A stretch of DNA of 49,503 bases, from assembly GCA_016197155.1 (NCBI GenBank), contig JACPWF010000013.1, forward strand, positions 1 to 49,503, in the 5' to 3' direction. Position 1 is the stretch's first letter; each line of letters opens with the position of its first letter. Below, in pieces: positions 26,231 to 43,199 of this stretch. Both the position numbers and the translations under genes were made by a program. Below the pieces are notes generated by a model. It was not told the origin of the DNA. It made no database searches and saw nothing but the letters and a program-made list of their open reading frames with translations. This stretch comes from Candidatus Omnitrophota bacterium (GTDB lineage: Bacteria > Omnitrophota > Gorgyraeia > 2-02-FULL-51-18).

Positions 26231-26246
26231 GAATTTTCTCAAAAAA

Positions 26247-26630: not shown

Positions 26631-26634
26631 GTCT

Positions 26635-27833: not shown

Positions 27834-28858
27834 TTCCCGCGCGCCTTTCCCCGAAGCGCCATCCCCAGAACCACGGCCAGCTCCGGGTAATGCTCGGCCA
27901 AAACCTTCTGGTCCACGCCGGGTACGGCCTGGATTTTTTGGATGCTGTTCCAGAGCGCGGCCGGCCGTCCCAGTTCCGCCGACAAGTGTTCGGCCACGCC
28001 CACCGACAGGGCCCCTCCCCCGCTCATCCAGATGGTTTTCAGCTCCTCGCTCGTTTCATTTTCAAAATAATCGATCGAATGTTTGAGCTCCTCCGTCAGA
28101 GACTCGAAACCCTTCTGCGTGGCGATTTTTAAATCGTTCATGTTCTGGGGGTCGCGGTTTTTTTTCAGCGCTTCCGCCTGGTCTTCGGGGATCGCCCGCA
28201 TCTGGGCCAGGGCCCGGGTGACTTCGAGACCTCCCGTCGGGACCTCGCGCACAAAGCCGGGGAGCTTGTCCTTCACGATCGCGAAAGAACTCCCCCCGTG
28301 CCCAATATTCAAAAGCCCATAAACGGATTCGCCGCGGCCGTCGCCGAGCGACTGAAAGGCGTTCACCAGACAAAAAACATCGACATCGATGAACTCCGGC
28401 TGAATGCCGATGTCGGAAAGCATCTTCACCCGGCCCTGGATCAAATCCCGTTTGGCGGCCACAAGAATCACGTTCATCGCGTTTTTCTCCGGGATCTGAT
28501 TCAAAATTTGAAAATCGAGCACGCAATCATCCACCGGGAACGGGATGTGGCCTTCGGCCTCGAAACGGATGGCGCCTTTGAGTTCCAGATGGGACATGAC
28601 GGGGAGCGCGATGCGGCGGACCAAAAGCGACGGGCCCGAAACGGCGACCCGCGCGCGGCGCGGCAAGGGAAGAAGCGGGTCAAAACACTGGCGTAGGGCC
28701 GCGGCCGTGTCCTTGGCGAATTTTTCGAAAAGAGGAACGATCGACACCCGCGTGAGCTCCGGGTTCTCCTGGCCTTCGCGGCGCGCCATCTCGACGCACT
28801 TGATGGAGGAAGCGCCGATATCCAGCGCGACAATGACTTCGTCCCTGATTTTCTTCAT
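27830..28858 (-). CDS. pilM: Actin-like pilus assembly ATPase PilM
   Basis: About 342 residues of actin fold: phosphate-1 loop ALDIGASSIKCVEM, LPVMSHLELKGAIRFEAEGHIPF, LLNIGHGGSSFAIV, and the adenosine motif WMSGGGALSVG. It binds the PilN N-terminus in the cytoplasm and signals to the pilus ATPases. ATG 28858 is chosen; the TTG one codon earlier is less likely. It starts 12 bases after the membrane TPR gene. Confidence 0.93.
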   Translation of the reverse strand: MKKIRDEVIVALDIGASSIKCVEMARREGQENPELTRVSIVPLFEKFAKDTAAALRQCFDPLLPLPRRARVAVSGPSLLVRRIALPVMSHLELKGAIRFEAEGHIPFPVDDCVLDFQILNQIPEKNAMNVILVAAKRDLIQGRVKMLSDIGIQPEFIDVDVFCLVNAFQSLGDGRGESVYGLLNIGHGGSSFAIVKDKLPGFVREVPTGGLEVTRALAQMRAIPEDQAEALKKNRDPQNMNDLKIATQKGFESLTEELKHSIDYFENETSEELKTIWMSGGGALSVGVAEHLSAELGRPAALWNSIQKIQAVPGVDQKVLAEHYPELAVVLGMALRGKARGK

Positions 28859-28870
28859 CAATGTATAAAT

Positions 28871-30910
28871 TTACCCGCTTTTGTTAAAAATTGCCAGCGC
28901 TTTCTCGGCCCTGGCCAAAATCTTTTCGACGATCAGGGTGTCTTCGGCTTCCTTTTGGATTTGGATTTTATGTTCCGACAGATCCTCGGACAAATCCGCC
29001 CGTTCGCGGTTCAACACGTGCCTCATCAAAATGTAGTACCGGGCGGTTTTTTCGTTGAACGCGTACTTCCGCGAAACCAGGCCCCGGTAGGCCTCCAAAC
29101 TCATGCGGCCTCTCAAAAATCCCGCCGTGTCCGCAAACCATTCGAGCTTGGGATATTTTTGGAGCAACGTGTCGAGCTTGGCGCGCGCCAGGTCGTCCCA
29201 TTCGTTCAGGTAGGCCAGAAGCACGGTCTCCAAAAGAAGGGCCGCGTGTTCCTTGTCTTTCGCCGGACTGTCCAAAATCGCCAGGCCTTTCTCGGCCCAC
29301 TCAAGCGCTTTATCGGGTTTTCCCCAAAGTTCGTACGTGCGGATCAGATTTTTATACACGAGCGCCGAGTCCGGCAATTTCGCCTGCGCCTCCTCCAGGA
29401 TCTGCGCGGCCTCCCCGTACTTTTCCAGCCGCGTCAGGCACAGCGCCAGGCGGACCCGGTGAATGAGCTGATGCTTGCCGTCGGAGGTCTCATACGCTTT
29501 TTTAAAATAACCCGCGGCGGTCTCGTATTTTTTTTTATTGAAATAATAAAGGCCGAGATTGTAATTATTCGACTCCGCCTCGGGAGACATCGCATAGGCG
29601 GTCCTGAGCGGGACAAACGCGTCGTCCCAGGAACCGTTCAAAATCGCCATGATCCCCAGATTGACATACCCGTAGTACGCGTAGGGCGACGCGCTTCTGG
29701 CGAGCGTGCGGTAATACCGCTGGATGTCCGTGTAGGCGGAGTTCCGCTCGAACGTGCGCAGAGAGACGAATAAAAAAAACGGCGCGTAAAAAACGAGAAA
29801 CAGGGTGATGAGAATTTTCCGGCCGGCCGTTTTCAGGCTGTCGAGGAGCGCGCCGAAAAGAATGACCAGTCCCATGGAGGGGATGTAAAGGTAGTGCTCC
29901 GCCCACTCCGGATAAAAATGAACGATTTGGAGCGACGGCGCGAAGCTCGCCAGAAAAAATCCCAGGCCGAAAAACGCCGCCCCGCGGCGGCGCAGGGTCA
30001 GAATCCCGCCCAGCGCCAAAAGAAAAATCACGCCGAGCGTCGTGAACACGCGGGGGTCGGTGAAGCGGCTTGCGAATTCGACACTGTCGCAAAATTTAAA
30101 AGGCTCCGGGAAAAAAATCGCGGTGAGGTAGCTCAAAAACGGAGGCCCCATCGACAAAAACCTTAAAAGGGCCTCGCGCGCATGAAATTCCGGCGGGCCG
30201 AGCGGGACGGGCGAGAAAAATTTCCGGAAGACGATGTAAGCAAGCGCCACTGTCAAAAAAGGGAGCAAACGGCGCGCGAGCGTCTTAAAAGGCGTTCTCA
30301 CAAACGCGGCGTCCAAAAGCGCCAGGTACACCGGGACCAGAATACAGCTCTCCTTGAATAATAAGGACGCGCCGTAAACCAAAAGGGCCGCGCCGAATTT
30401 TGATTCCCAGTAAAAAAGAAGCGCGGCCAGCGCGGCCAGCGCGCCGAGCAAGTCCCCGCGGCTGGCGATGTAGGTCACCGCTTCGGTGTGGATCGTGTGC
30501 ACCGCGTAAATTAGGGCCGGCAGGAACGCGACCAGATTATTTTTAAAAATTTTTTTTAAAAGACGGAAAAGCAGGATCGTCACCGACGCGTGAAGCAAAA
30601 GATTGGTGAGGTTGTAGCCCAGAGGGTTCACGTTCCACACGCGGTAGTCCAGCGCGAACGAGAGAAGCGTGAGCGGCCGGTAGTACTGCTCCCATATCGT
30701 GTCGACGCCGACACCCTTCTGAAAAAAACCCGCCCCGAAAAAACCGGGAAGGTTCCCCAGATTTCTCATGAGCGGATTCAAAAGGATGATGTCGTCTTCG
30801 TCGAATAAAAAATTATGGCCCAGCGAAACGCTGTAAAGACAAAAGAGCGTAGCGACGAGGCCAAGCGCCCCGACGAAGCCCGGGTGCCGAAACGAAAAGG
30901 GATTTTTCAT
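28871..30910 (-). CDS. TMTC-like multi-pass membrane protein with C-terminal TPRs (possible O-mannosyltransferase)
   Basis: About 679 residues from ATG 30910. The first two-thirds hold roughly ten membrane helices, with the first periplasmic loop carrying an acidic motif, FDEDDIILLNP. A WEQYYRPLTLLSFALDY segment and HTEAVTYIASRGDLLGALAALAAL follow: the signature of the TMTC/GT-C family of lipid-linked sugar transferases. The C-terminal third is TPR repeats (for example NNYNLGLYYFNKKKYETAAGY). It is placed between the pilin genes and pilM. Glycosylation of pilin is a reasonable inference from position; the sugar and target are unknown. Confidence 0.82.
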   Translation of the reverse strand: MKNPFSFRHPGFVGALGLVATLFCLYSVSLGHNFLFDEDDIILLNPLMRNLGNLPGFFGAGFFQKGVGVDTIWEQYYRPLTLLSFALDYRVWNVNPLGYNLTNLLLHASVTILLFRLLKKIFKNNLVAFLPALIYAVHTIHTEAVTYIASRGDLLGALAALAALLFYWESKFGAALLVYGASLLFKESCILVPVYLALLDAAFVRTPFKTLARRLLPFLTVALAYIVFRKFFSPVPLGPPEFHAREALLRFLSMGPPFLSYLTAIFFPEPFKFCDSVEFASRFTDPRVFTTLGVIFLLALGGILTLRRRGAAFFGLGFFLASFAPSLQIVHFYPEWAEHYLYIPSMGLVILFGALLDSLKTAGRKILITLFLVFYAPFFLFVSLRTFERNSAYTDIQRYYRTLARSASPYAYYGYVNLGIMAILNGSWDDAFVPLRTAYAMSPEAESNNYNLGLYYFNKKKYETAAGYFKKAYETSDGKHQLIHRVRLALCLTRLEKYGEAAQILEEAQAKLPDSALVYKNLIRTYELWGKPDKALEWAEKGLAILDSPAKDKEHAALLLETVLLAYLNEWDDLARAKLDTLLQKYPKLEWFADTAGFLRGRMSLEAYRGLVSRKYAFNEKTARYYILMRHVLNRERADLSEDLSEHKIQIQKEAEDTLIVEKILARAEKALAIFNKSG

Positions 30911-30923
30911 AAATGGATTTTTT

Positions 30924-30953
30924 AAAAAATAGGGGGGCGGCCCGGAGGGCCGC
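30924..30953 (-). terminator. Hairpin with T run after the promoter-driven pilin gene
   Basis: Minus strand GCGGCCC-TCC-GGGCCGC, then CCCCC and TATTTTTT. The T run is about seven bases from the stem, so termination may be partial. The palindrome resembles dispersed repeat families and may be a captured repeat. Confidence 0.55.
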
Positions 30954-30984
30954 ACCCACCACAATCAATCGATCAACCGAACGA

Positions 30985-31353
30985 TCAGTCTAGCCGATGG
31001 CTCTTCGGTGTCGCGCCTGCCGCTGCGCCCGACAAAGAACAAACGGGAAGCGTACCGACGGCGTTGACCGTGTACGTCCCGGCTCCCGGACAAGTCGGGA
31101 AGGTGTTGTTCTTCAGATACGGCGTACAGCTGGCCGAGGTCATCGCCGCGCCGCTGGCAAGGTTATTCTCGATGGCGCTTTGCTCTTTGGACGAATCGAT
31201 GAGCCTCAGGTTATTGATACACGTGTTGCTCCGCGCGGAGTTTCTGGCCTGCACGAAGTTCGGCACCGCGATGGCGGCTAAAAGACCGATGATTGCCACA
31301 ACGATCATGATTTCCACAAGGGTAAAACCCTTGGTGTTTCTTTTGATGACCAT
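30985..31353 (-). CDS. Type IV pilin-like protein with own promoter
   Basis: A 122-residue prepilin: short basic leader ending in G, cleavage before FTLVEIMIVVAIIGLLAAIAVPNF with Glu5, then INNLRLIDSSKEQSAIEN, cysteines at CTPYL, CPG and VCSL, and the C-terminus ATPKSHRLD. AAAGGAGC precedes ATG 31353; longer frames lack a site. A strong separate promoter (31431-31459) and a downstream hairpin suggest this is the highly expressed major pilin. The prepilin peptidase is not in the window. Confidence 0.92.
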   Translation of the reverse strand: MVIKRNTKGFTLVEIMIVVAIIGLLAAIAVPNFVQARNSARSNTCINNLRLIDSSKEQSAIENNLASGAAMTSASCTPYLKNNTFPTCPGAGTYTVNAVGTLPVCSLSGAAAGATPKSHRLD

Positions 31354-31384
31354 GTGATGCTCCTTTATATATAAATAAAACCCC

Positions 31385-31409
31385 TGATAAGAATTACCAC
31401 CTCTTATCA
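31385..31409 (-). promoter_or_regulatory. Leader hairpin upstream of the pilin gene
   Basis: Minus strand TGATAAG-AGGTGGTAATT-CTTATCA, a perfect 7-bp stem between the promoter and the ribosome-binding site, possibly an mRNA-stabilising 5' structure. The start-site GGAGC lies outside it. Confidence 0.5.
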
Positions 31410-31430
31410 AGTCTTCCTATTTCTATGCAA

Positions 31431-31469: not shown

Positions 31470-31829
31470 TCAGTCCAAACGGTGGCTTTTCGGCGTTGCG
31501 CCCGGAGCCGAACCGGCCAACGCGCAGGTCGGGAAAGTCCCGACGGGATTGGTGGTGTACGCCGTGGAGGTGCCGGGACAAATGGGGAACACGTTGTTGC
31601 TCAAATAAGGCGTGCAGTCCGCGGACGTGGTGGCCGTGCCGCTTGGCAGGCTGTTTTCAATGGCGTACTGTTCCTTGGCCGCGTCGATGAGCCGCAGGTT
31701 GTTCACGCAGACACTGCTACGGGAGGCGTCCCGCGCGTGCTCGAAACCGGGCACGGCGATCGCGGCCAAAAGTCCGATGAGGGCCGTGACCATCATGATC
31801 TCCAAAAGCGTAAAGCCTTTTCTGCTCAT
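31470..31829 (-). CDS. Second type IV pilin/pseudopilin
   Basis: A 119-residue prepilin: MSRKG cleavage site, FTLLEIMMVTALIGLLAAIAVPGF, VNNLRLIDAAKEQYAIENSL, three cysteines in the same relative places as its neighbour, and the same C-terminal GATPKSHRLD. The two pilins are clearly paralogues from a local duplication. It follows pilC-type genes in the main operon (GAGGAAAAA before ATG), so it probably follows operon expression, unlike the promoter-driven copy. Confidence 0.9.
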   Translation of the reverse strand: MSRKGFTLLEIMMVTALIGLLAAIAVPGFEHARDASRSSVCVNNLRLIDAAKEQYAIENSLPSGTATTSADCTPYLSNNVFPICPGTSTAYTTNPVGTFPTCALAGSAPGATPKSHRLD

Positions 31830-31836
31830 TTTTTCC

Positions 31837-33048
31837 TCACTGCACCAGCGTTGAAATTTTGAATATCGGCAGGAACATGCAGATCACGATGCCGCCGATC
31901 ACAACCCCGAGAAACGCGATGACGAGCGGTTCAATGAGGCTCGTCAGCCCTGAAACGGCGGCGTCAACCTGGTCGTCATAGAAATCCGCGATCTTGGACA
32001 GCATTTTTTCGAGTTCCCCGGTCTGCTCGCCGACGGCGATCATGCGGACCACCAGCGGCGGAAAAACGTTACTGCGTGAAAGCGGGGCGGTGATGCTCTC
32101 CCCTTCCCGTATCCCGGCTCTCACCTTCTCCACCGCGTTCTCGATCACCTTGTTTCCCGCCGTTTTTCCCACGATCTCCAAGGCGTTCAAAATGGGCACG
32201 CCGCTTTTCACGAGGGTCGCGAGTGTCCGGGAAAATTTGCTCACCGCGACTTTCCGGAAGAGCACGCCGAACACCGGCATTTTCAGTTTGAAAGTGTCGA
32301 GGACCATGACCCCTTTTTCCGTCGAGAGATAGCGTTTGAGTAAAAAAAGCGCGGCGACCGAAGCGCCCGTCCAGATAAAAAAGGTGTGGATCAACAGATC
32401 GCTGATCGTGACGAGGACCTGGGTGGGCAAAGGGAGCTGGCCGCCAAAATCCTGAAACATCGACTTGAATACGGGCACGACCTTGAGCATCAAAACGAGC
32501 GTGATCAAAACCGCCATCGTCGTCACGACGGCCGGGTAGATCATCGCGGCGCGCACCTTCCGGACCAGGTGATCGGTTTTTTCGAGATAACCGGCCAACC
32601 GGTCCATGATGTCGTCGAGAGAGCCGCTGGATTCGCCGGCCTTGACCATTTGCACGAAAAGCGGCGAAAACGCCTTGGGGTGTTTGGCGAGAGCCTCGCA
32701 AAAAGAGGCTCCGGCCGAGACATCGCGTTTCACATCGGAAATAATTTTTTTAAAGGTGTGGTTCTCGATCTGTTCGGACAAAATTTCAAGCGCCTGAACC
32801 AGAGGGATGCCGCTGTCGATCATCGTGGCCAATTGCCGCGAAAATAAAACCAGCTCCCCAAGCTTCACCTTCCCGCCCATCCTAGCGGCAAAAGGAACCT
32901 TCTCCTGCTTTTTCTCCTCTTGAATGGACAGGATCACAAGCGCTTGTTTCCTCAAAAGATCGATGACGGCGCGCTGGTCCATCGCGTCTGAAATTCCCGT
33001 CACGTTTTTGCCGGTGACGTCTTTGGCCGTGTAGCGATAGGTGGGCAT
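31837..33048 (-). CDS. pilC: Type IV pilus inner-membrane platform protein PilC
   Basis: A 403-residue GspF/PilC protein. The N-terminus is MPTYRYTAKDVTGK, followed by two T2SSF repeats (FSRQLATMIDSGIPLVQALEIL and FSRTLATLVKSGVPILNALEIV) and membrane helices, ending AFLGVVIGGIVICMFLPIFKI. It forms the platform on which the ATPases act. ATG 33048 is two bases past the pilB stop. Confidence 0.95.
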   Translation of the reverse strand: MPTYRYTAKDVTGKNVTGISDAMDQRAVIDLLRKQALVILSIQEEKKQEKVPFAARMGGKVKLGELVLFSRQLATMIDSGIPLVQALEILSEQIENHTFKKIISDVKRDVSAGASFCEALAKHPKAFSPLFVQMVKAGESSGSLDDIMDRLAGYLEKTDHLVRKVRAAMIYPAVVTTMAVLITLVLMLKVVPVFKSMFQDFGGQLPLPTQVLVTISDLLIHTFFIWTGASVAALFLLKRYLSTEKGVMVLDTFKLKMPVFGVLFRKVAVSKFSRTLATLVKSGVPILNALEIVGKTAGNKVIENAVEKVRAGIREGESITAPLSRSNVFPPLVVRMIAVGEQTGELEKMLSKIADFYDDQVDAAVSGLTSLIEPLVIAFLGVVIGGIVICMFLPIFKISTLVQ

Positions 33049-33050
33049 GG

Positions 33051-34778
33051 TTACTCGTCCTCCGACGTCACGCGCGCGATCTCGTCCAGCGTGGTCAGTC
33101 CCTGGCAAAATTTTTTGAGCGCGTCGTCCCTCAAGGTCGTCATTCCCTTTTTCACCGCGTAGTCCTTGATCTCGTAGGAGGACGCGCGGCGCACCACGAG
33201 GTCCCGGATCACGTCGTCCACGAGCAGGGTTTCCAAAATACCCATGCGGCCCCGGTAACCGGTCTTGCCGCACTTCTCACAGCCGCGGCCGCGGTAAAAA
33301 ACGCGGGTCTTGGGGTCCGGCGCGATTTTATTCAAAGAAATATTCATGCGTTCGAACACTTCCTTGGGAATGTCGATCTTTTCTTTGCAGGAAGAACAAA
33401 TTTTTCGGCACAACCGCTGGGCGGCCACGAGGATGACGCTTGAGGCGATGAGAAACGGCTCGACGTGCATGTCCATGAGACGCGTCATGGCACCCGCCGC
33501 GTCGTTGGTGTGAAGCGTGCTCAAAACCAGCTGTCCGGTCAACGAGGCCTTGACGGCGATGTCCGCGGTTTCCGCGTCGCGGATCTCTCCGACCATCACG
33601 ATGTCCGGACTCTGCCGCAGGACCGCGCGCAGGCCGCTGGCGAAGTCCAGGCCGATCTCGGATTTGGTTTGGATCTGGGTGATCCCTCCGACCTGGTATT
33701 CGATCGGGTCTTCGATGGTGATGATGTTTTTTTCGGGCGTGTTGAGCTGGCTCAAAATCGAATAAAGCGTCGTTGACTTTCCGCTCCCGGTGGGGCCGGT
33801 GATGAGGAGCATGCCGAAGGGTTTGGTAATGGCGGTTTTCAAATTTTTGAGGGCCTCCGGCGAAAAACCGAGATTGTCGAGTCCCACGGTGATGGCGCTT
33901 TTGTCGAGGAGCCGCATGACCACCTTGCTTCCGAAATGCACCGGCAGAATGGACACGCGAAAATCCACCTCTTTTTCGCGGAACCGGATCTTGAACCGGC
34001 CGTCCTGCGGCACGCGGTTCTCGGTGATATCAAGTTTGGACATGATCTTGAGGCGCGTCAAAACGGCGTTCTGCTGTTTTTTGGGGATCGTCAACACTTT
34101 CTCGAGGGATCCGTCGATCCGGTAGCGCACGCGCATGGCCTCTTCGAACGGCTCGATGTGGATGTCGCTGGCCCTTTTGGCGAGCGCCTCGCGCAGCATG
34201 AGGTCCACGATCTTGACGACGGGCGCTTCGGTCCCACGGCCGCCGACGACGTGCGCCTCGAGCTCCTCGTCGCTTTTTAAAAATTTCACCTCGTCGCCGG
34301 ACGCGCTGATCGAACTGGCCACGTCGCTCATCGTCTCGCTCTCGGCCGCATACAGCCGGTCGAGCGCTTCCTGGATGTCTTTTTCGGAACTGATCACGCA
34401 TTCGATTTTCTCGTGCGTGAGAAGCGTGATGTCGTCGATCGCCAGAACGTCGAGCGGGTCGGCCATCGCCAGCGTCAGCGTTTTGCCTATTTTGGAAACG
34501 GGGACGATTTGATGTTTTCGCGCCAGTTTCTCGGGAATCATTTTGGCGATTTCGGGATTGATTTTGTATTTGGCCAGATTGAAAAACGGGATTTTGAGCT
34601 CTTCGCCGAGAAGCGAGACGAGTTCCTTCTCGGTCACCAGGTTCATCTCGACCAGGACGTCGCGCAGTTTTCCTTTTCCCTCTTTTGCGTAGGCCAAAAG
34701 CGCCCTTTCGAGGTCCGTCTCACTCACGCGCTTGGTTTTTTTTAAAAGTTCGATGACCCGCTCGCTCAAGTTCTTCAT
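33051..34778 (-). CDS. pilB: Pilus extension ATPase PilB with MshEN domain
   Basis: A 575-residue GspE/PilB ATPase. An MshEN-type N-terminal domain (about 1-140: LVEMNLVTEKELVSLLGEELKIPFFNL) is a known c-di-GMP-binding fold. Then come the N2 domain with RASDIHIEPFE, Walker A GPTGSGKST, Asp box IITIEDPIEY, Walker B VMVGEIRDAETADIA, and a four-cysteine zinc module (CRKICSSCKE, CEKCGKTG). ATG 34778 overlaps the preceding ATPase stop as ATGA. It lies directly before pilC. Confidence 0.94.
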   Translation of the reverse strand: MKNLSERVIELLKKTKRVSETDLERALLAYAKEGKGKLRDVLVEMNLVTEKELVSLLGEELKIPFFNLAKYKINPEIAKMIPEKLARKHQIVPVSKIGKTLTLAMADPLDVLAIDDITLLTHEKIECVISSEKDIQEALDRLYAAESETMSDVASSISASGDEVKFLKSDEELEAHVVGGRGTEAPVVKIVDLMLREALAKRASDIHIEPFEEAMRVRYRIDGSLEKVLTIPKKQQNAVLTRLKIMSKLDITENRVPQDGRFKIRFREKEVDFRVSILPVHFGSKVVMRLLDKSAITVGLDNLGFSPEALKNLKTAITKPFGMLLITGPTGSGKSTTLYSILSQLNTPEKNIITIEDPIEYQVGGITQIQTKSEIGLDFASGLRAVLRQSPDIVMVGEIRDAETADIAVKASLTGQLVLSTLHTNDAAGAMTRLMDMHVEPFLIASSVILVAAQRLCRKICSSCKEKIDIPKEVFERMNISLNKIAPDPKTRVFYRGRGCEKCGKTGYRGRMGILETLLVDDVIRDLVVRRASSYEIKDYAVKKGMTTLRDDALKKFCQGLTTLDEIARVTSEDE

Positions 34779-36520
34779 GTCTTCAAATCCTCGTCGCACA
34801 CGGTCACGCGCAGGACCTCTTCCGGCGTCGTGACGCCCTGGAGGATCTTGGCGATGCCGTTCTCGCGGAGCGTTTTCATTCCCTCCTCGAGACCCCGTTT
34901 TTTAATCTCATGCTCCTGCGCGCATTTTAAAATCAGGTCCTTCACGGCGGGGGACAGCGTCAGCGCCTCGAGCAGCACCGCGCGGCCCGCGTAGCCGCTT
35001 TTGCCGCAGGCCTCACAACCTTTCCCGCGATAAAACAGGGCGCGCTTGTGAGCGCCCAGGTGTTTTTCCGTGACGGCGAGCTCCCGCATCAATTCTTTGG
35101 AGGGCTCATAACTTTCCCTGCACTTGAGACAGATTTTTCGGACCAGCCTCTGAGAACCGGCGAGCAAAACACTCGAGGTGATCAAAAAAGGTTCGATGCC
35201 CATGTTCACGAATCGCGTCACCGCGCCCACGGCCGTCGTCGCGTGCAGGGTGCTCAAGACCAGATGCCCCGTGAGAGCCGCCTTGATCGCCACGTCCGCG
35301 GTTTCCGAATCGCGGATCTCCCCGACCATGATGACGTCCGGATCCTGCCGCAAGATCGAGCGCAGGGCCGCCGCGAACGTCAGCTCCACCTCCGACCGGA
35401 TCGCCACCTGATTGATCCCGTCGATCTGAACTTCCACCGGGTCCTCCACGGTCACCAAATTTTTGTCGGGCGTGTCGATGAGTTTCAATACCGAATAAAG
35501 TGTCGTCGTTTTTCCCGATCCGGTCGGGCCGCAGATCACGATCATCCCGTGAGGGTGCGAAGCAGCTTTTTTGAGCTGGGCCAGCGGCTCCGGTTCAAAA
35601 CCCAATTTTTCGATGTCCAGCATCGCCTGGTTTTTGTCGAGCACGCGCAGCACGACTTTTTCTCCGAAATACGTCGGCAGGACAGAAACGCGAAAATCCA
35701 CTTCCCGGTCCCGCGTGCGGATCTTAAAGCGGCCGTCCTGCGGGACACGGTGTTCGGCGATGTCGAGATTCGACATGACCTTGAGCCGCGACACGACCCC
35801 CGGGTGCATCGCGCGCGTCGTCAAAAGCCCTTCCTGCAGAAGGCCGTCCACCCGCAGGCGCACGCGCAGGGTTTTTTCCTCGGGCTCGATGAAAATGTCG
35901 CTTGAGCGCCGGCGCACGGCCTCCGCTAAAATGGAATTGGTGAGCTTCACCACCGGCTCTTCCTCGGTCAAGCGCAGAAGTTCCTGCGCGGATTTTTGAG
36001 AAGGGCCCACGCCGCTGTCCTGGACCTCCAGATTCTCTTCCTCCATACCCTTGACCACGTCGTTCAGGGAGGACGAGAGATTCTCGCCGTAGTATTGTTC
36101 AATGGCCTCGCGGATTTCTTTGTCCTGCGCGATGAGCGTGCGCGTCTCCATTTGCGTGAGACGCCGGACGTCGTCGAGCGCTTCGATGTTCATCGGATCG
36201 GCCATGGCGATCGTCAGCGTGTTTCCAAAAACCGAAACGGGAACGAGGTTATAAAGCTCGGCCATCTTGCGGGGAATGAGGGAAAGCGCCTTCGCGCTCG
36301 GCTTGTAACGGTGAATGTGAATGGCGGGAATGCCCAGCTCCGCGCTCAAGACCTCGATCAAATTGTCGGGCGAGATATAGCCGAGCTTCACGAGAAGTTC
36401 GCCGATCCGCTCTTTCCTCTGCTTCTGGATTTTGAGCGCCTCGTCCAGTTTTTCCTGAGTGAGGATGTTGCCCTTCACCAAGAGGGCCGTCAACCGTTCC
36501 CGCAGAGCCGAGCTCATCAT
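34775..36520 (-). CDS. Second PilB/GspE-type ATPase with MshEN domain
   Basis: A 581-residue paralogue of the next gene: MshEN domain (LGELL-type helices KERIGELLVKLGYISPDNLIEVL), a linker around VVKGMEEENLEVQDSGVG, SSDIFIEPEE, Walker A GPTGSGKTT, VTVEDPVEVQ, VMVGEIRDSETADVA, HATTAVGAVTRF, and zinc cysteines (CLKCRE, CEACGKSG). Two extension-type ATPases in tandem before one PilC suggest either alternative motors or one regulatory copy. Start codons ATG 36520 and 36517 are adjacent. Confidence 0.93.
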   Translation of the reverse strand: MMSSALRERLTALLVKGNILTQEKLDEALKIQKQRKERIGELLVKLGYISPDNLIEVLSAELGIPAIHIHRYKPSAKALSLIPRKMAELYNLVPVSVFGNTLTIAMADPMNIEALDDVRRLTQMETRTLIAQDKEIREAIEQYYGENLSSSLNDVVKGMEEENLEVQDSGVGPSQKSAQELLRLTEEEPVVKLTNSILAEAVRRRSSDIFIEPEEKTLRVRLRVDGLLQEGLLTTRAMHPGVVSRLKVMSNLDIAEHRVPQDGRFKIRTRDREVDFRVSVLPTYFGEKVVLRVLDKNQAMLDIEKLGFEPEPLAQLKKAASHPHGMIVICGPTGSGKTTTLYSVLKLIDTPDKNLVTVEDPVEVQIDGINQVAIRSEVELTFAAALRSILRQDPDVIMVGEIRDSETADVAIKAALTGHLVLSTLHATTAVGAVTRFVNMGIEPFLITSSVLLAGSQRLVRKICLKCRESYEPSKELMRELAVTEKHLGAHKRALFYRGKGCEACGKSGYAGRAVLLEALTLSPAVKDLILKCAQEHEIKKRGLEEGMKTLRENGIAKILQGVTTPEEVLRVTVCDEDLKT

Positions 36521-36536
36521 TCACCCGCCGTTTCCA

Positions 36537-36974
36537 TTAAACTTTGTAACACCGTTTGATCGCCTCGTTCACATCCGTCGTGGTCGCCACAAAAATCTGC
36601 AGTTTCAAATGCGTGATCATCTCCACGTCTTCGACGGCGGAGGTGTTGAGGGGGTTCGACATCGCCACCGTCAGGATACCCCCCACGCGGTCCACGGCGA
36701 TCAGGCCATACTGCTTGGCCACCTGTTCGGGGATTAATTTAGCCGTTTCGCCGTCTATTTCGTAGCCGCCCAGCGGCAGATACGGAAAACCGTACTGCGC
36801 CGTGAGCGCCTGGGCGATCGCCTCTTCCGTGGTGTGCCCGAGCGCCACTAGGATCTGCCCGATCAGCCCGCCTTTCTCCTTTTGAACCCTGAGCGCCTCG
36901 GCCAGATTTTCGGGAGTGATGAGCTTGCTTTCGATTAAAAGCTCCCCGAGTTGTTTGGGATTGATTTTTTTCAT
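36537..36974 (-). CDS. Standalone MshEN/GspE N-terminal domain protein
   Basis: A 145-residue protein made only of the ATPase N-terminal domain: LGELLIESKLITPENLAEALRVQ, then IGQILVALGHTTEEAIAQALTAQ with the paired L-G-x-x-L helices of MshEN, then LIPEQVAKQYGLIAV and LTVAMSNPLN as in the full ATPases. No P-loop, so it cannot hydrolyse ATP. It could act as a free c-di-GMP sensor or compete with the ATPase N-termini. It overlaps pilT by 4 bases. Confidence 0.87.
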   Translation of the reverse strand: MKKINPKQLGELLIESKLITPENLAEALRVQKEKGGLIGQILVALGHTTEEAIAQALTAQYGFPYLPLGGYEIDGETAKLIPEQVAKQYGLIAVDRVGGILTVAMSNPLNTSAVEDVEMITHLKLQIFVATTTDVNEAIKRCYKV

Positions 36975-38035
36975 TTCATCGCCAAAAGCCTTTCCAATTC
37001 CTGAAAATCAGAGGTGCGTTCGAGCGCGCTCTCGCGCGAAATTTTTCCCGACCTCACCAGTTCCGCCAGGCTCATGTTGAGTGTGCGCATCCCTTCTTTT
37101 TGGCCCATTTGAATCGACGAATAAATCTGGTGGGATTTCGAATCCCGGATGAGCGTGCGGATCGCGGGGTTGGCGATCAGGATCTCGGCCGCCAGCGCCA
37201 GGCCCCCGCCGGTTTTGGGAATGAGTTGCTGGCAGATCACCGCCTGCAGGACAAATGAAAACTGGACGCGGATCTGCTGTTGCTGGTGCGCCGGAAAAAC
37301 GTCGATCACGCGGTTCACCGACTGGACGGCGTCCGGCGTGTGCAGGGTCGCGAAAACCAGGTGGCCCGTCTCGGCGGCCATGAGGGCGGTTTCGATCGTC
37401 TCCAAATCGCGCATCTCGCCGATCAAAACCACATCGGGGTCCTGGCGCAGGACGTGCTTGAGCGCGGCGTGGAACGACTGCGTGTCGCCGCCCACTTCTC
37501 TCTGGTGAATGATCGCTTTTTTATTTTGAAAAATGAATTCGATCGGGTCTTCGACCGTGACGATGTGACAGGCCTCGTGGCGGTTGATGTGATCGATCAT
37601 CGACGCGAGGGTCGTGGTCTTGCCGCTGCCGGTGGCGCCGGTCACGAGAATGAGCCCGCTCGGACGCGAAACCAGGCTCTCGGCCACCGCAATGGGAAAG
37701 CCGATCTGTTCGAACGTCATCGGGTCAAACGGCAGGGCGCGGATCGCCGCGGCGATCGCGTTTCTCTGATAAAAAAGGTTCGCGCGAAAACGGCCCACCC
37801 CCGGGATGCCAAAGGAGGTGTCGAGCTCCTTTTCCTTCTCAAAAATTTTAAACCGGTCTTCCGACACGCACTGCGCCAAAAGGGCCATGACCTGGCCGCG
37901 CGTCAACACCCCCTCGAAGAGAGGCACGAGGTCCCCGTCCACGCGCATCACAACGGGCGCGCCTTCACTGATATGCACATCCGAGGCCCTTTTAGAAACG
38001 GCGTACTTTAAAAGTTCGGTCAGCGATTCTTTCAT
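36971..38035 (-). CDS. pilT: Pilus retraction ATPase PilT
   Basis: A 354-residue hexameric ATPase with RASDVHISEGAPVVMRVDG, Walker A GATGSGKTTTLASMIDHIN, VEDPIEF, the PilT-type DPDVVLIGEMRDLETI, HTPDAVQSVNRVIDVFP, and the AIRTLIRD-like C-terminal region that marks retraction motors. It confirms a dynamic type IV pilus rather than a type II secretion system. Confidence 0.95.
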   Translation of the reverse strand: MKESLTELLKYAVSKRASDVHISEGAPVVMRVDGDLVPLFEGVLTRGQVMALLAQCVSEDRFKIFEKEKELDTSFGIPGVGRFRANLFYQRNAIAAAIRALPFDPMTFEQIGFPIAVAESLVSRPSGLILVTGATGSGKTTTLASMIDHINRHEACHIVTVEDPIEFIFQNKKAIIHQREVGGDTQSFHAALKHVLRQDPDVVLIGEMRDLETIETALMAAETGHLVFATLHTPDAVQSVNRVIDVFPAHQQQQIRVQFSFVLQAVICQQLIPKTGGGLALAAEILIANPAIRTLIRDSKSHQIYSSIQMGQKEGMRTLNMSLAELVRSGKISRESALERTSDFQELERLLAMK

Positions 38036-38066
38036 CGCGATCCCCCATCCTTCCTGTTTTAATTTC

Positions 38067-38966
38067 TTAAGAAGCGAATGCTTCGACTAAGTTGGCTCCG
38101 CGCTTTTTCGCCTCCAGCATCCGGCCGTGGGCTTTCAAGAAAAGCTCTTCCCCCGACACGCCGTCTATCGGATTTTCGCTGATCCCGATCGACACGGTGA
38201 ACCGGACCTTTGAACCGCCCACCTTTGCGGAAAGATGATCCGCCACCCCCCGCCGGATCTTCTCCACAAACTCGATGGCGCTTTTCTTATTCTTCTCGGG
38301 AAGGATCACCGCGAACTCTTCCTTTGTGATCCGCGCCGCGCGGTCAAATTCGGACAGATGCCTGCCGAACACCTTGGCCATGGATTTCAGAAGCTCCCCG
38401 GACACCTCTTCGCCGTGTTGTTTGGAATAGGCGTCAAACCCGTCGATCGCCAAATACGCGAACGCGCAGGGCCGCTGGTAATGGATGGACCGCTGGATCT
38501 CCTCATCCAGGCGCTCGCGGATGTAGGTGGCGTTGTAAAGCCCCGTGAGTTTGTCCTTCATGGAAAGCTTTTCCACTTTCTCAAGAAGTTCCCTGGCATT
38601 TGCGGAGATGGTCCGAAGACTATGCGAGAGGTCCTCCAATTCGTCCGCCCCTTTGATTTCCCGGATCTGCCGCTCGATATCCAGTTTCCCGTCGGCGAGG
38701 CTTTGAGCCGCCACCGTCGCGCCCACAATCGGGTAGACGAGCTGTTTGGCCAGCAAATAGCCGAGCACGGCCAAAACGATGCTCCCCACCATGACAAGGG
38801 ACACGATCCCGAGGTTAGCCGAATTGATCTCAAAGGGAAACTTAATGAAGAGCGAGGCCACATACACACCGCCTAAAATAGGCAGTAACGACATCAGGCA
38901 AAACGCAACCACCAGCTTATACCTTAACTTAGTGGGCAGAAAAGCCAGTTTTGAGAGGATTAGCAT
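38067..38966 (-). CDS. Membrane HAMP-GGDEF protein with degenerate active site
   Basis: A 299-residue protein: two membrane helices (about 18-41 and 52-72), a HAMP-like linker (YPIVGATVAAQSLADGKLD), a short coiled coil, then a GGDEF fold beginning MKDKLTGLYNATYIRERLDEE. The signature that should read GGDEF is ITKEEF, the substrate-binding YND/GD positions read YSK and SGE, and the RxxD inhibitory site is lost. Probably not a diguanylate cyclase but a sensor or c-di-GMP/GTP-binding regulator. As first gene of the pilus operon it is well placed to control the MshEN-bearing motors. Confidence 0.85.
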   Translation of the reverse strand: MLILSKLAFLPTKLRYKLVVAFCLMSLLPILGGVYVASLFIKFPFEINSANLGIVSLVMVGSIVLAVLGYLLAKQLVYPIVGATVAAQSLADGKLDIERQIREIKGADELEDLSHSLRTISANARELLEKVEKLSMKDKLTGLYNATYIRERLDEEIQRSIHYQRPCAFAYLAIDGFDAYSKQHGEEVSGELLKSMAKVFGRHLSEFDRAARITKEEFAVILPEKNKKSAIEFVEKIRRGVADHLSAKVGGSKVRFTVSIGISENPIDGVSGEELFLKAHGRMLEAKKRGANLVEAFAS

Positions 38967-38989
38967 ATTTTTGTCCTTTCTTGATTAAA

Positions 38990-39018
38990 ATAATATACTA
39001 ATTATTAACATTAGTCAA
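38990..39018 (-). promoter_or_regulatory. Sigma70-type promoter of the pilus operon
   Basis: Minus strand TTGACT (39018-39013), 17-bp spacer, TATTAT (38995-38990), in an AT-rich block about 25 bases before the GGDEF-protein start. AAGGA lies before that ATG. Confidence 0.8.
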
Positions 39019-39043
39019 TAGTAGTTAAGAATAATTATGATAA

Positions 39044-39070
39044 ATTAATCGATTAAAAATTTACAATTAA
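39044..39070 (+). repeat. 27-bp direct repeat, copy 1
   Basis: ATTAATCGATTAAAAAT plus TTACAATTAA. It matches copy 2 at 39126-39152 with about three mismatches. The copies bracket the palindrome at 39081-39122. Confidence 0.8.
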
Positions 39071-39080
39071 TAAGATTCAA

Positions 39081-39122
39081 AAGGGGACTGTCCCTTTTTG
39101 GGCTAAAAGGGACAGTCCCCTT
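39081..39122. repeat. Perfect 18-bp palindrome (GGGGACTGTCCC family), likely rodA terminator
   Basis: AAGGGGACTGTCCCTTTT, loop TGGGCT, then its exact complement. This GGGGACTGTCCC element is a dispersed repeat in many bacteria. In the minus-strand transcript it follows rodA by about 28 bases and is followed by TTTT, so it can serve as terminator. With the direct repeats it fills the gap 38967-39149, together with the promoter. Confidence 0.85.
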
Positions 39123-39125
39123 AAT

Positions 39126-39152
39126 ATTAATCGATTAAAAATCTATAATTTA
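39126..39152 (+). repeat. 27-bp direct repeat, copy 2, overlapping the rodA stop
   Basis: ATTAATCGATTAAAAAT plus CTATAATTTA. The last three bases are the rodA stop codon on the other strand. Confidence 0.8.
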
Positions 39153-40244
39153 AAAAAGAGGCTTGTGGAGGTGGATATTAAGGAGAAGGCCAATGGCGAG
39201 CATGGTCGTGATAACCGAGGTGCCTCCGTAGCTGACTAGAGGAAGCGGGACCCCCACCACCGGCAAGAGGCCCATTGTCATGCCGATGTTGATAAAAGCC
39301 TGGAAGCCGATCATCGTGGTGATCCCGCAGGCAAGCCCACTGCCAAACCGGTCCGGTGTTTGGCCGCATAGGGCGTAGCCTTTTTTGACGATCACGCCGA
39401 ATAGAAAAAGGAGGGCCAGACAAGCGGCCAGCCCTCCCTCTTCGGCCACGACGCTGAAAATAAAGTCCGTGTGTTTTTCCGGCAAAAACTGCAAATGGGT
39501 TTGGGTGCCGCCCATGAAACCCCTTCCCAACAAGCCCCCCGACCCGATCGCGATTTTAGACTGAATGATCGTGTAGCCCGCTCCCAAAGGGTCGAGATTG
39601 GGGTTCATGAAAACCAAAAGTCTCGTGCGTTGGTAATCCTTGAGAAAGAAAAAAAGAAGCGGCGAGGCCAAAACTCCGATCGCCAAAAAAATCAGGAGCG
39701 CGCGCGCCCTGAATCCCCACCCATAAAGCATCGCCAGAAAAATGGGCACGAGAATGACCGCGGTCCCCAGATCCGGCTCTTTTAAAATCAAAAGGAAGGG
39801 CACGCCCACGATGATGAAGGGCATCAGGCGATCCCGCTTGGAGAGGGATTCGACCCGCTTGTGAGAAAAAAGGTGAGCCAAGACCAGAATGACCGACAGC
39901 TTCGCCAACTCCGAGGGCTGAAAATTGAATCCGCCCAAATCGATCCAGCGCCGGGCCCCCAGCCGCGGCGGTGTGAAAAGAACCGCGACCAAAAGGAAAA
40001 CACTGACAAAATAAAGCGGCCAGGCCCAGTCCCGCAGGCGGAAGGTGTTCACGCGAAGGATCAAAAACACGAGCAGGATCCCGATGCCCATCCAGAGGAT
40101 CTGCTTGACCACGAGCGTGTGAACCAGAAGCTCGCGCGATTTGAAAGACGCGCTGTAAACGCTGAAGACCCCGATCAAAAAAATGAGGATCGGCGCCGCG
40201 AAAAGGCCTTTATCCAAATTCCGGAAGTTTAATTTAGAACTCAT
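39150..40244 (-). CDS. rodA: SEDS peptidoglycan polymerase RodA
   Basis: A 364-residue, ten-helix protein: FSVYSASF, RRWIDLGGFNFQPSELAKLSVIL, the catalytic-region LKEPDLGTAVILVPIF, AIGSGGLLGRGFMGGTQ, FLPEKHTDFIFSVVAEEGG and PLPLVSYGGTSVI. It polymerises glycan strands for side-wall growth together with PBP2. ATG 40244 overlaps the PBP2 stop as ATGA. Last gene of the mre operon. Confidence 0.96.
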   Translation of the reverse strand: MSSKLNFRNLDKGLFAAPILIFLIGVFSVYSASFKSRELLVHTLVVKQILWMGIGILLVFLILRVNTFRLRDWAWPLYFVSVFLLVAVLFTPPRLGARRWIDLGGFNFQPSELAKLSVILVLAHLFSHKRVESLSKRDRLMPFIIVGVPFLLILKEPDLGTAVILVPIFLAMLYGWGFRARALLIFLAIGVLASPLLFFFLKDYQRTRLLVFMNPNLDPLGAGYTIIQSKIAIGSGGLLGRGFMGGTQTHLQFLPEKHTDFIFSVVAEEGGLAACLALLFLFGVIVKKGYALCGQTPDRFGSGLACGITTMIGFQAFINIGMTMGLLPVVGVPLPLVSYGGTSVITTMLAIGLLLNIHLHKPLF

Positions 40245-41974
40245 AAATAGGAGGCCTTTTTGAGCCATTGAAAAAGAAGGGCGGCCAGGCTCGCCGCGCT
40301 CACTCCCCCGCGCCCGCCGTTTTCCAGAAAAACCACGACGGCCACTTTTGGATTTTCCTCGGGGGCAAATCCCACAAACCACGCGTGCGTGCGGTCCTGC
40401 CCCGATTGCGCGGTGCCCGTTTTTCCCGCGATGCGGATCCCCTCGACGCGGGCCAGCCTGCCGGTCCCCGTGCCCGATTGGATGACGGCGTCGAGGCCGT
40501 CGATCACGGCCCGGAGATCCGACGGGTCGATGGTCAGCGTGCGGGACGAGCCGTCCGCCACTTTGACATTTTCGATCCGGTCGACGACATGCGGTTTGAA
40601 GATCCAGCCGTGCGCGGCCACACCCGCGATCATCCCCAGCGCCTGAATCGGGGTCACCTGGAGATAACCCTGGCCGATGGCGAAATTCGCGGTCTCCCCT
40701 TCATACCAGGGCGCGTGATAAACTTTTTTCTTCCATTCGCGGGAAGGGACAAACCCCTCTTTTTCGCCCGGCAAATCGATGCCGGTGAGTTTTGAAAAAC
40801 CAAATTGGGCGGCCTTTTCCGCGATCGCGTCCACCCCCGCCAAAACGCCCGCTGAGTAGAAATACACGTTGCACGAGTGGGCGAATCCCTCGGCCAGACG
40901 CTCGTCGCCGTGCCCCGTCAAATTCCAGCAGTGAAACGCGTTCCCGCCGATCGTGAGAACGCCTCCGCATTTAAAAACCGTCGCGGCGGTTATTTTTTTC
41001 TGTTCGAGCGCGGCCAGGGCCGTCACGATTTTAAAAATCGATCCGGGCGGATAAGCGCCGCGGATCGCGCGGTTCACCATCGGGGCGCGCTCGTCGGTCA
41101 AATAGTCCCCCACTTTTTTCCGGCCCTCGCGCGTCGCAAAAAGATTCGGGTCGAAGGAGGGGGAGCTGTTGAGCGAGAGGAGCCCGCCGTCCTCGAGGTT
41201 CATGACGATCACCGCCCCTTTTTGAGCCCGTAAATATTCCTGAACCGTGGATTCCAGTTCGGCGTCCACGGTGAGGCGGATATCCTTGCCGCCGGTGGGC
41301 CGCTCGAAACCGAGCGTCCGGACGAACCGGCCGCGGCTGTTGACTTCCATTTGAATGCCGCCGGACCGGCCGCGAAGGTAGGACTCGTAGAATTTTTCCA
41401 CACCGTCGCGGCCGACCCAGTCAGCCGGCTTGTACCCGCCGATCTCCATTAAATCTTCCTCATCGTCACGGATCGGCCCGACAAAACCCACCAGATGCGC
41501 CGCGGATTCTCCCAGGGGATAGGTCCGTTTCGAATGCGTCTCCACGAGAAACCCCGGCAATCTGTCGAGACGCTCTTCGATCGCGATGGCTTTTTGGGAA
41601 CCGATGTCTTCGGCCATGAGCACGGTATGAAAGGCGCCGGGCGGGCGTTCGTAAAAACGTTTTTCGAGCGTCCAGGCGTCTTCGCCCAGGATCGGCGCGA
41701 GAACGCGGCAGCTTTGCTGAATCGCCCCTTGGGCTTCCCAGGGAATGGCGGAACAGTTGAAACCCAGGCGGCTGGTCGCCAGCACCCGGCCGCGGCGGTC
41801 GAGGATTTTTCCGCGCGCGCCTTCCAGATAAATCACGCGCAGGCGGTTTTTTTCGGAAAGCGCCCGGTAGGCGTCTCCTTTAATGACCTGCATCCAGACG
41901 AGATTTACACCCAGGAACGCGAAGAGCGCGGTCGTGACGAATAAAAGCCGTTGGGCCTTATCCGAAACGCTCAT
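40241..41974 (-). CDS. mrdA: Penicillin-binding protein 2 (peptidoglycan transpeptidase)
   Basis: A 577-residue protein with one N-terminal membrane helix, a dimerisation/pedestal region starting LRVIYLEGARGKILDRRGRV, and a transpeptidase domain with Ser312-IFK315, SCN at 367-369 and KTG at 518-520. It cross-links peptidoglycan in the elongasome with RodA. Slightly shorter than E. coli PBP2. ATGA overlap with mreD. Confidence 0.96.
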   Translation of the reverse strand: MSVSDKAQRLLFVTTALFAFLGVNLVWMQVIKGDAYRALSEKNRLRVIYLEGARGKILDRRGRVLATSRLGFNCSAIPWEAQGAIQQSCRVLAPILGEDAWTLEKRFYERPPGAFHTVLMAEDIGSQKAIAIEERLDRLPGFLVETHSKRTYPLGESAAHLVGFVGPIRDDEEDLMEIGGYKPADWVGRDGVEKFYESYLRGRSGGIQMEVNSRGRFVRTLGFERPTGGKDIRLTVDAELESTVQEYLRAQKGAVIVMNLEDGGLLSLNSSPSFDPNLFATREGRKKVGDYLTDERAPMVNRAIRGAYPPGSIFKIVTALAALEQKKITAATVFKCGGVLTIGGNAFHCWNLTGHGDERLAEGFAHSCNVYFYSAGVLAGVDAIAEKAAQFGFSKLTGIDLPGEKEGFVPSREWKKKVYHAPWYEGETANFAIGQGYLQVTPIQALGMIAGVAAHGWIFKPHVVDRIENVKVADGSSRTLTIDPSDLRAVIDGLDAVIQSGTGTGRLARVEGIRIAGKTGTAQSGQDRTHAWFVGFAPEENPKVAVVVFLENGGRGGVSAASLAALLFQWLKKASYL

Positions 41975-42420
41975 GAAAATCGTTTGAGAATTTGAAAAAC
42001 AAACGGCGAGAGAATAGCCGTGATCAAGAGGTCCCGCGGCAGGAAGGCCTCGCGAACAAGCGATAAGCCGAAGGCGTGATTTCCAAGGTTGAAAAAAGTC
42101 ACGAGGTACAGGGCGATCACGGGCAGAAGGATCTGCGTCCACAGGCTGTCGCGAAAAACTTTTTGGGCCGCCAGGCCCGCCAAAAAACCGATTCCGCCAA
42201 AAATCGCCGACTCGTAACCGATGCGTCCCACTCCAAAAACTTCGAGCAGGCCGCCCGCGGCACCTCCCAGCGCTAAACCAAAAACCGGTCCCCGGGAAAG
42301 CGCGTAGAAAAGGACCCCCAACAGGACCAGCGGCAGGTCCTGCCCAAAAAAAATAAACCCCGCGGCGTTTTGAATGAGAAAAAGAAAAAAGATCACCGCG
42401 AACGCTAGGACCCCGCGCAC
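41971..42420 (-). CDS. mreD: Rod-shape protein MreD
   Basis: A 149-residue protein almost entirely of membrane helices, with the family-like FFGQDLPLVLLGVLFYALSRGPVFGLALGGAAGGLLEV. A GTG start at 42420 overlaps mreC by 16 bases. Between mreC and mrdA, the usual place. MreD diverges strongly, so position carries much of the weight. Confidence 0.88.
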   Translation of the reverse strand: MRGVLAFAVIFFLFLIQNAAGFIFFGQDLPLVLLGVLFYALSRGPVFGLALGGAAGGLLEVFGVGRIGYESAIFGGIGFLAGLAAQKVFRDSLWTQILLPVIALYLVTFFNLGNHAFGLSLVREAFLPRDLLITAILSPFVFQILKRFS

Positions 42421-43187
42421 GTGACTTCCTCCGCCCGGCCCGGATCCGCGAAGGGCTCGAGCTCCGCCTCCTGATAATTCTGACCCGCGTCTTTCCGGAC
42501 GCGGACGATTTTTCCCACGCGCACCCCTTTCGGAAAGAGCCCGCCGAAGCCCGCTGTTTCCACTTCGTCACCGATTTTGATTTCTTCGTCCTTTGAAAGA
42601 TAACGGATGGCGCAGCGGCCGGACAACGAACCCGTCAAGACCCCCTCCTGGCGCGTGCGTTGGACGAGGACCCCGATGCGAAAATTGGGATCCTGCATCA
42701 GAAGCACCTTGGAGACCGAAGGGCCCGATTCGACGATTTTTCCCACGAGCGAAAAGTCCGATAGGACAACCCTATTCATCTTGACGCCATCTTTGGTCCC
42801 CTTGTCGATCAGAAACACCCGGTTCCACGCCGACGGCGAGCGGCCGATGACACGGCTGTGGATCAAACGCTTAAACGAAAGGGACTGCGGAGGCACAAGC
42901 CCTAAAAGTTTGGTCAGCCGCGCGTTTTCCAGGGCGAGTTCGCGGGAATCAAACGCCTTCGAATCGATTTCCGCGAGCCGGGTTTTGAGCGCGCGGTTTT
43001 CGCGGGCGTTTTGCCGGAAACGGTAAAGGTCCGTGACGAACGCGGCCGTCTCTTTGGACAAGACAAGCGGCCATTCGAGAAATGAGGCGGCCGAGCCTTT
43101 AATCGAAACGGCTTGGGAAACAGGGAGAGTGGTCAGGAAAAAAAGGAAGGACGCGACACCGATGACAACGGACGTTTTTTTCAGCAC
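42405..43187 (-). CDS. mreC: Rod-shape protein MreC
   Basis: A 260-residue protein: one N-terminal helix, a coiled coil (about 60-95), then the periplasmic beta domain with VIGRSPSAWNRVFLIDKGTKDGVKMN, VLLMQDPNFRIGVLVQR, GDEVETAGFGGLFPKGVRVGKI. It bridges MreB filaments to PBP2. It uses a GTG start and follows mreB by 12 bases. Confidence 0.95.
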   Translation of the reverse strand: MLKKTSVVIGVASFLFFLTTLPVSQAVSIKGSAASFLEWPLVLSKETAAFVTDLYRFRQNARENRALKTRLAEIDSKAFDSRELALENARLTKLLGLVPPQSLSFKRLIHSRVIGRSPSAWNRVFLIDKGTKDGVKMNRVVLSDFSLVGKIVESGPSVSKVLLMQDPNFRIGVLVQRTRQEGVLTGSLSGRCAIRYLSKDEEIKIGDEVETAGFGGLFPKGVRVGKIVRVRKDAGQNYQEAELEPFADPGRAEEVTCAGS

Positions 43188-43199
43188 ATCTTTAAATTT

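Follow-up and report, generated by a model that had tools for sequence, protein, structure and literature searches.

The window analysed here is the whole 49,503-nucleotide stretch at positions 1 to 49,503 of contig JACPWF010000013.1 (assembly GCA_016197155.1) from a Candidatus Omnitrophota bacterium (GTDB lineage Bacteria; Omnitrophota; Gorgyraeia; 2-02-FULL-51-18). The assembly is 1.43 Mb in 40 contigs and 93% complete. The window contains a type IV pilus operon on the minus strand, 3′ of mreB-mreC-mreD-pbp2-rodA. PilB, PilT, PilC, pilins, PilM and a secretin are all encoded in the operon, which makes it a type IVa pilus system. The part studied here encodes a membrane protein with a degenerate GGDEF domain, a PilT-type ATPase, a free-standing MshEN protein (free MshEN), two PilB-type ATPases with MshEN domains of their own (PilB1 and PilB2) and the platform protein PilC (Table 1). 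The genes are tightly packed, with an overlap of 4 bases between those for PilT and free MshEN and of 25 bases between those for PilB1 and PilB2.

A preliminary description had read 34775-38966 as a control set for cyclic diguanosine monophosphate (c-di-GMP), made of a dead GGDEF protein, a free MshEN domain and two tandem PilB-type ATPases with MshEN domains. All of these parts were confirmed, but the second PilB lies outside that interval, and a full PilT gene (36971-38035) between the GGDEF and MshEN genes had been overlooked. Placing the operon start at the GGDEF gene is plausible, given a 183-bp gap to rodA with promoter-like sites, among them TTGACT-17-TATTAT at 39018-38990, but the upstream mre-rodA genes are co-linear too.

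Conservation of the gene order, proposed as a check of that description, was assessed in 95 loci of the class (35 in a first set and 60 further), chosen for a free MshEN match. The order (mre-rodA)-GGDEF-PilT-MshEN-PilB1-PilB2-PilC recurs in loci of 40 families by our count, with losses of GGDEF or PilT, so that it is not due to chance. A free MshEN frame was found in 93 of the 95 loci (L103 and L104 are without one). In these 93, PilB1 follows free MshEN in 88 and a second PilB is present in 81. Upstream, 68 have a GGDEF gene and 43 have PilT, and many of the absences reflect contig ends. L080 and L083 are examples of a frequent variant that has no PilT between GGDEF and MshEN, and in G006 neither GGDEF nor PilT is found at this place.

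The c-di-GMP site in the three MshEN domains

The residues of the c-di-GMP site were judged by known biochemistry, taken here and below from the reports on MshE of Vibrio cholerae (PMC5013675), on the GSPII (MshEN) domains of Thermus thermophilus PilF (PMC11731258, PMC12002112) and on the PilB-TfpB pair of Acinetobacter baylyi (PMC11656802). The motif RLGxx(L/V/I)(L/V/I)xxG(L/V/I)(L/V/I)xxxxLxxxLxxQ occurs in two copies 5 residues apart, and c-di-GMP is bonded by the backbone amides of Gly3 and the next residue and by the side chain of Gln24; c-di-GMP does not stabilise the MshE variants G11L and G40I, and Gly11, Gly40 and Gln61 have been lost from XpsE, which does not bind the nucleotide (PMC5013675). 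At motif position 1, R, K or L is tolerated, and in GSPII-B single Gln-to-Glu changes shift the dissociation constant (KD) from 6 nM to 950 or 460 nM, while the double change abolishes binding (PMC11731258). In GSPII-A, a domain that does not bind, three of the four site positions are occupied by H, A and R, and Ala at the site glycine costs about tenfold in affinity in GSPII-A constructs (PMC12002112). Scoring Gly3 and Gln24 of both motifs agrees with the reported behaviour of these domains: T. thermophilus GSPII-B and Myxococcus xanthus PilB, which bind c-di-GMP, keep all four positions, and GSPII-A, which does not bind, keeps one (PMC11731258, PMC12002112, PMC11656802).

In the window, free MshEN reads QLG...Q and LIG...Q, with all four positions intact. 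PilB1 reads RLT...Q and RIG...E and keeps two (motif I Gly3 is Thr and motif II Gln24 is Glu), and PilB2, with RVI...Y and KLR...E, keeps none. The contact residues on which the preliminary description had made its case depend are thus absent from PilB2, partly absent from PilB1 and present in free MshEN; its idea of three MshEN domains that read c-di-GMP is not supported, the only site intact by its residues being that of the free protein. These residues argue moderately for loss of the site in the window's PilB1 and strongly for its loss in PilB2.

The same division was found across the class loci and the window, where all four positions are intact in 88 of 94 free MshEN proteins, 2 of 88 PilB1 and 0 of 79 PilB2 (the motifs could not be located in the PilB1 of L099 or in the PilB2 of L099, L078 and L227). 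Both glycines are intact in 92/94, 4/88 and 0/79, respectively, and a site short of one position is seen in four PilB2 and three PilB1. In the first set of loci the site was complete in 31 of 34 free MshEN, 2 of 29 PilB1 and 0 of 27 PilB2. Other MshEN-bearing frames elsewhere in the first-set genomes keep all four positions in 11 of 20 cases, and the site loss in the motors of the operon therefore exceeds the background. Fisher tests on this set gave P = 3e-12 for free MshEN against PilB1, 3e-14 against PilB2 and 0.005 against the control frames, values that relatedness among the sequences makes too small.

Identities and family scans were made on 75 of the 93 loci, in which all three genes are present, after ten with broken, short or distinct genes had been left aside. 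The mean pairwise identity of the site-bearing N-subdomain falls from 59% in free MshEN to 41% in PilB1 and 34% in PilB2 (76 sequences each), and that of the ATPase domain is 60% in PilB1 and 64% in PilB2 (76 each). The free MshEN of the window scores 62.3 bits with Pfam MshEN (cut-off 23.1) and 60.0 bits with NCBIfam NF053729 (cut-off 38). Its structural model has a mean predicted local distance difference test score (pLDDT) of 90.9, and the best Foldseek match in the PDB is MshE with c-di-GMP (5htl; template modelling score 0.85 by target length). At motif II position 1, Leu is shared by 93 of the 94 free MshEN proteins, that of the window included, and by GSPII-B, the 6 nM binder (PMC11731258).

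A second free MshEN with all four positions intact follows PilB2 in L246, L249, L250 and L253. In at least three of these four, the GGDEF gene is missing from its usual position.

The pseudo-GGDEF protein and the motors

The membrane GGDEF protein was correctly described as degenerate. It has two hydrophobic segments, a HAMP match slightly below the Pfam cut-off and a strong GGDEF match, with TKEEF at the signature. Active cyclases combine a GG[DE]EF signature with metal and guanine residues (roles as in PleD), namely a metal-binding Asp, an Asn and a further Asp; the protein has A, S and G at these three positions. At the RxxD position N-terminal to the signature, the I-site for c-di-GMP binding in GGDEF domains, it has SEFD. 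Among the 70 locus GGDEF proteins (69 relatives and the window) the full catalytic set and RxxD were each found in none and a GGDEF signature in four, while all 20 control GGDEF domains from elsewhere in the relatives have an intact signature and DxDxFKxxND. The loss of catalytic residues is therefore specific to the locus GGDEF and old, and the claim that this protein is non-catalytic is supported by residues in all 70 sequences. By sequence it is predicted to be neither an active diguanylate cyclase nor an I-site receptor.

The pseudo-GGDEF protein is not decaying, since Cys167 and Pro266, Asp268 and Gly269 (PxDG), which lie within YQRPCAF and SENPIDG, are invariant in 70/70. At the Cys position, intact GGDEF domains have Leu, Phe or Ile in 23 of 24 cases and Cys in one; the invariant Cys in YQRPC[SAG]F is a lead for a contact surface or for redox sensing. 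In most families the protein is about 440-510 amino acids long, in that of the window about 290-300. The longer forms have about 160 extra amino acids between the HAMP region and the GGDEF domain, a stretch that looks GAF-like. An AlphaFold2 model of the window's protein (mean pLDDT 83.4) found GGDEF domains, that of FimX included, as its best PDB matches in Foldseek. The domain scan gave no EAL match in its 299 amino acids, and a FimX-type protein is therefore not indicated.

The window's own genome has four intact GGDEF domains outside the locus gene, and in 39 genomes PilZ matches were found in 39 and EAL matches in 17. With intact cyclases, PilZ and EAL proteins, the cells would have c-di-GMP to sense.

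Both extension motors appear functional as ATPases. Walker A reads GPTGSGKTT in PilB1 and GPTGSGKST in PilB2 of the window and is present in 75/75 PilB1 and 75/75 PilB2; on this ground the reading of a dead motor was rejected. The two differ in the His box, which is STLHATTA in PilB1 and STLHTNDA in PilB2 of the window; across the class PilB1 mostly has STLHTTTA or STLHATTA (76 PilB1 sequences) and PilB2 STLHTNDA, a lasting difference between the motors. An apparent PilB1-PilB2 fusion of 1170 amino acids in L229, which would have argued for contact between the two, proved to be joined by a run of N and is no fusion.

A proposed receptor in trans and competing readings

From these sequences, that is, from the gene order and its conservation, the site kept in free MshEN and lost in the motors, the residues lost from GGDEF, the intact Walker A motifs and the cyclases elsewhere, we infer c-di-GMP binding, docking, a direction of effect and a role for the pseudo-GGDEF protein. 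The explanation we favour, and to which we give an even chance, is that free MshEN is the c-di-GMP receptor of the operon and acts in trans on motors without a site, with the membrane pseudo-cyclase as its partner. Sensing of c-di-GMP would have been shifted out of the extension motors of the type IVa pilus operon, and the nucleotide would be supplied by the other, intact cyclases of the cell. Loaded free MshEN would dock on PilB1, on PilB2 or on both, directly or via the pseudo-GGDEF protein, and docking would license extension, the MshEN domains of PilB1 and PilB2 having kept the fold without the site. Retraction would be driven by PilT. The pseudo-GGDEF protein would make no c-di-GMP and have no usual RxxD site; most likely it would work by contact with other proteins, either anchoring at the membrane or gating the path from an envelope signal to the motors.

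Two loci from one genus (L075 and L079, two genomes) appear to show the site moving. In both, motif II of free MshEN has Gly replaced by Thr and Gln by His, and these are the only loci whose PilB1 holds all four positions, an apparent swap from free MshEN to PilB1 that would be expected if one site per operon is needed. A wider version of the receptor proposal, which we hold with somewhat less than an even chance, is that free MshEN is a detachable receptor subunit across this Omnitrophota class. As the sole bearer of an intact site, the subunit would act in trans, jointly with the conserved membrane pseudo-cyclase, to control both tandem motors, and evolution would keep one intact site per operon, movable between the subunit and PilB1.

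Several observations weigh against a sole receptor in free MshEN. The swap is one event in one genus. In L240, L247 and L249, of one family, motif I Gln24 of free MshEN is Lys or Arg and no intact PilB1 was seen, and in L100 free MshEN has lost one position while PilB1 is degenerate. In 57 of the 94 free MshEN proteins, that of the window included, motif I has Gln at position 1, outside the tested R, K and L. NF053729, a model of the c-di-GMP motif, passes the window's PilB1 at 53.3 bits against its cut-off of 38 (PilB2, at 23.3, is below), and at an E-value of 1.5e-9 it matches free MshEN in 75/75, PilB1 in 72/75 and PilB2 in 41/75. Because it does not discriminate, this model was dropped as a test of the site; as the family profile matches all three groups, they are separated by the site residues only. 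Finally, the window's PilB1, with one Gln-to-Glu and one Gly-to-Thr change, might bind weakly, which is conceivable because GSPII-B with a single Gln-to-Glu change still has a KD of 460-950 nM (PMC11731258).

One alternative is an operon with two receptors, free MshEN of high affinity and PilB1 of low affinity. The motor would then respond to c-di-GMP in two steps, a behaviour already proposed for T. thermophilus PilF with its serial domains. The acceptance of PilB1 by the motif model and the binding of the GSPII-B mutants would fit, as would the retention of motif I Gln24 in 85 of 88 PilB1, together with the hydrophobic positions. The glycines speak against it, since only 4 of 88 PilB1 keep both, Leu or Ile in their place left MshE without stabilisation (PMC5013675) and Ala cost about tenfold in affinity (PMC12002112), and we regard two receptors as unlikely. 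It is quite improbable, in our view, that the residues of free MshEN are kept for a cause other than c-di-GMP binding. Such a cause would account for the C-subdomain being well kept too (58% mean pairwise identity) and for the Gln that mostly occupies motif I position 1, but folding alone does not demand these residues, which PilB1 and PilB2 lose freely with the fold recognisably kept, and the apparent swap would be hard to explain.

In the preliminary description the free MshEN was a decoy that helps to tune motor choice, a model that would need three working MshEN domains and competition for c-di-GMP by the free one. All three do belong to the MshEN family. The supposed decoy, however, holds the only intact site, with the site residues lost in the motors; a decoy would have nothing to compete with if the motors do not bind. 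It looks like a receptor instead, and we give the decoy very little credence. A switch between the two motors may exist. The mre-rodA genes that precede the pilus genes in many of the loci would fit a different target, MreB-RodA or PilMNO in place of the motors, through which free MshEN or the pseudo-GGDEF protein would couple c-di-GMP to cell shape or pilus placement. Against this, the free MshEN gene is always found beside PilB1, which was assigned in 88 of 93 loci, whereas the presence of GGDEF and PilT varies, and a target outside the motors seems improbable to a high degree.

Compared with known systems, the receptor proposed here is closest to MshE, which has the same fold and the same 53-residue double motif and is the nearest solved structure to the free MshEN model. 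MshE carries the domain in one chain with the ATPase under its control, whereas here the site-bearing copy is separate and the fused copies are without a site (PMC5013675). T. thermophilus PilF, with three serial GSPII domains, likewise has several per pilus system, some binders and one non-binder, and its high-affinity domain shares the Leu at motif II position 1 (PMC11731258); all are in one polypeptide there (PMC11731258, PMC12002112), whereas the domains of the present operon are divided among three genes and two motors. In the FimX(-PilZ)-PilB systems of Pseudomonas and Xanthomonas, FimX has its own c-di-GMP-binding EAL domain, while the receptor candidate here is the MshEN protein and the degenerate GGDEF protein, unlike FimX, has HAMP, membrane segments and no EAL domain (PMC5595344). 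The PilB-TfpB pair of A. baylyi also places two extension ATPases in one pilus system, but those described here are both PilB-type, adjacent, in tandem and paired across the class (PMC11656802). A comparison with TfpB gave no match of note, with one of 75 PilB2 reaching E = 1.5e-9. Our literature searches found no stand-alone MshEN protein acting as a receptor in trans.

The route from c-di-GMP binding by MshEN to the pilus motor is called unknown in the reports on PilF (PMC11731258) and PilB-TfpB (PMC11656802). With receptor and motor as separate proteins, the receptor can be added or withheld to ask what its bound form does. It has been discussed that Omnitrophota may use type IVa pili to attach to other cells and prey on them (PMC10066038). 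For these uncultured, mostly tiny bacteria the operon would offer a concrete pilus control circuit, open to reconstruction in a laboratory host.

Distribution and neighbouring features

The prevalence of free MshEN was estimated solely from a profile search of 286 genomes of the class. Among the matches listed, 150 in 149 genomes, with E-values up to 5.0e-64, all lie in open frames of 145-250 amino acids. By our count the best match is at 1e-41 or better in 250 of 286 genomes; as frames were seen for the listed matches only and ATPase-internal domains reach 4.7e-48, the number of genomes with a free MshEN lies between 149 and about 250 of 286. Short-frame matches also occur in other Omnitrophota classes (for example G293, G292, G299 and G291). 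In five genomes of other groups the best MshEN matches are mostly in long frames, a sample too small to call the arrangement confined to Omnitrophota.

Table 1. Positions of the pilus operon and adjoining features in the window
Feature	Position	Strand	Basis or remark
rodA, pbp2, mreD, mreC, mreB (cell elongation)	39150-44273	-	MreB and RodA by length and homology; PBP2, MreC and MreD are our naming
rodA-GGDEF gap, 183 bp	38967-39149		promoter-like sites, palindrome pair
Membrane pseudo-diguanylate-cyclase, degenerate GGDEF, 299 amino acids	38067-38966	-	domain matches, residues
PilT/PilU-family ATPase (pilus retraction)	36971-38035	-	TIGR01420, 464 bits (cut-off 319)
Free-standing MshEN protein, 145 amino acids	36537-36974	-	Pfam MshEN, NCBIfam NF053729
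PilB1, PilB-type ATPase with N-terminal MshEN	34775-36520	-	domain matches
PilB2, PilB-type ATPase with N-terminal MshEN	33051-34799	-	domain matches
PilC platform protein	31837-33048	-	start chosen inside longer frame 31837-33273
Pilin-like protein 1	31470-31829	-	N-methylation motif
Pilin-like protein 2	30985-31410	-	N-methylation motif
Large protein with C-terminal TPR repeats, in pilus operon	28871-30964	-	domain matches
PilM	27830-28861	-	TIGR01175, 152 bits (cut-off 133)
PilN-like, PilO/GspM-like, short T2SSB-like frame, PilQ secretin	24770-27833	-	all weak or below cut-off except the secretin

The secretin scored 273.6 bits, below the NCBIfam equivalog cut-off of 284.35, and PilB1 (630.7 bits) and PilB2 (639.0 bits) are both under theirs of 675.65. 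The TPR protein, which lies between the pilins and PilM, has a hydrophobic N-terminal part; L070, the nearest relative, has it too, and it was assigned in none of the other loci. By eye, the gene that follows PilB2 in some families resembles a response-regulator receiver (L202:8390-9301, L237:3-707). A literature search on the clustering of mre and pil genes found nothing relevant. A c-di-GMP riboswitch was sought in the window with Rfam at gathering thresholds, which gave one tRNA only.

Between rodA and the pseudo-GGDEF gene, at 39083-39120, lies a palindrome pair GGGGACTGTCCC whose two members are oppositely oriented and have their starts 26 bases apart. The 12-mer occurs 36 times in the genome, mostly in this same 26-base arrangement, while its reversed control occurs 0 times, and with this number of largely paired copies it looks like a repeat family of the REP/REPIN type. 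Away from the operon, a frame of 1667 amino acids at 4842-9845 combines UvrA domains, all within the first 900 residues, with numerous TPR repeats beyond residue 990; if the frame is sound, it is a UvrA-TPR fusion.

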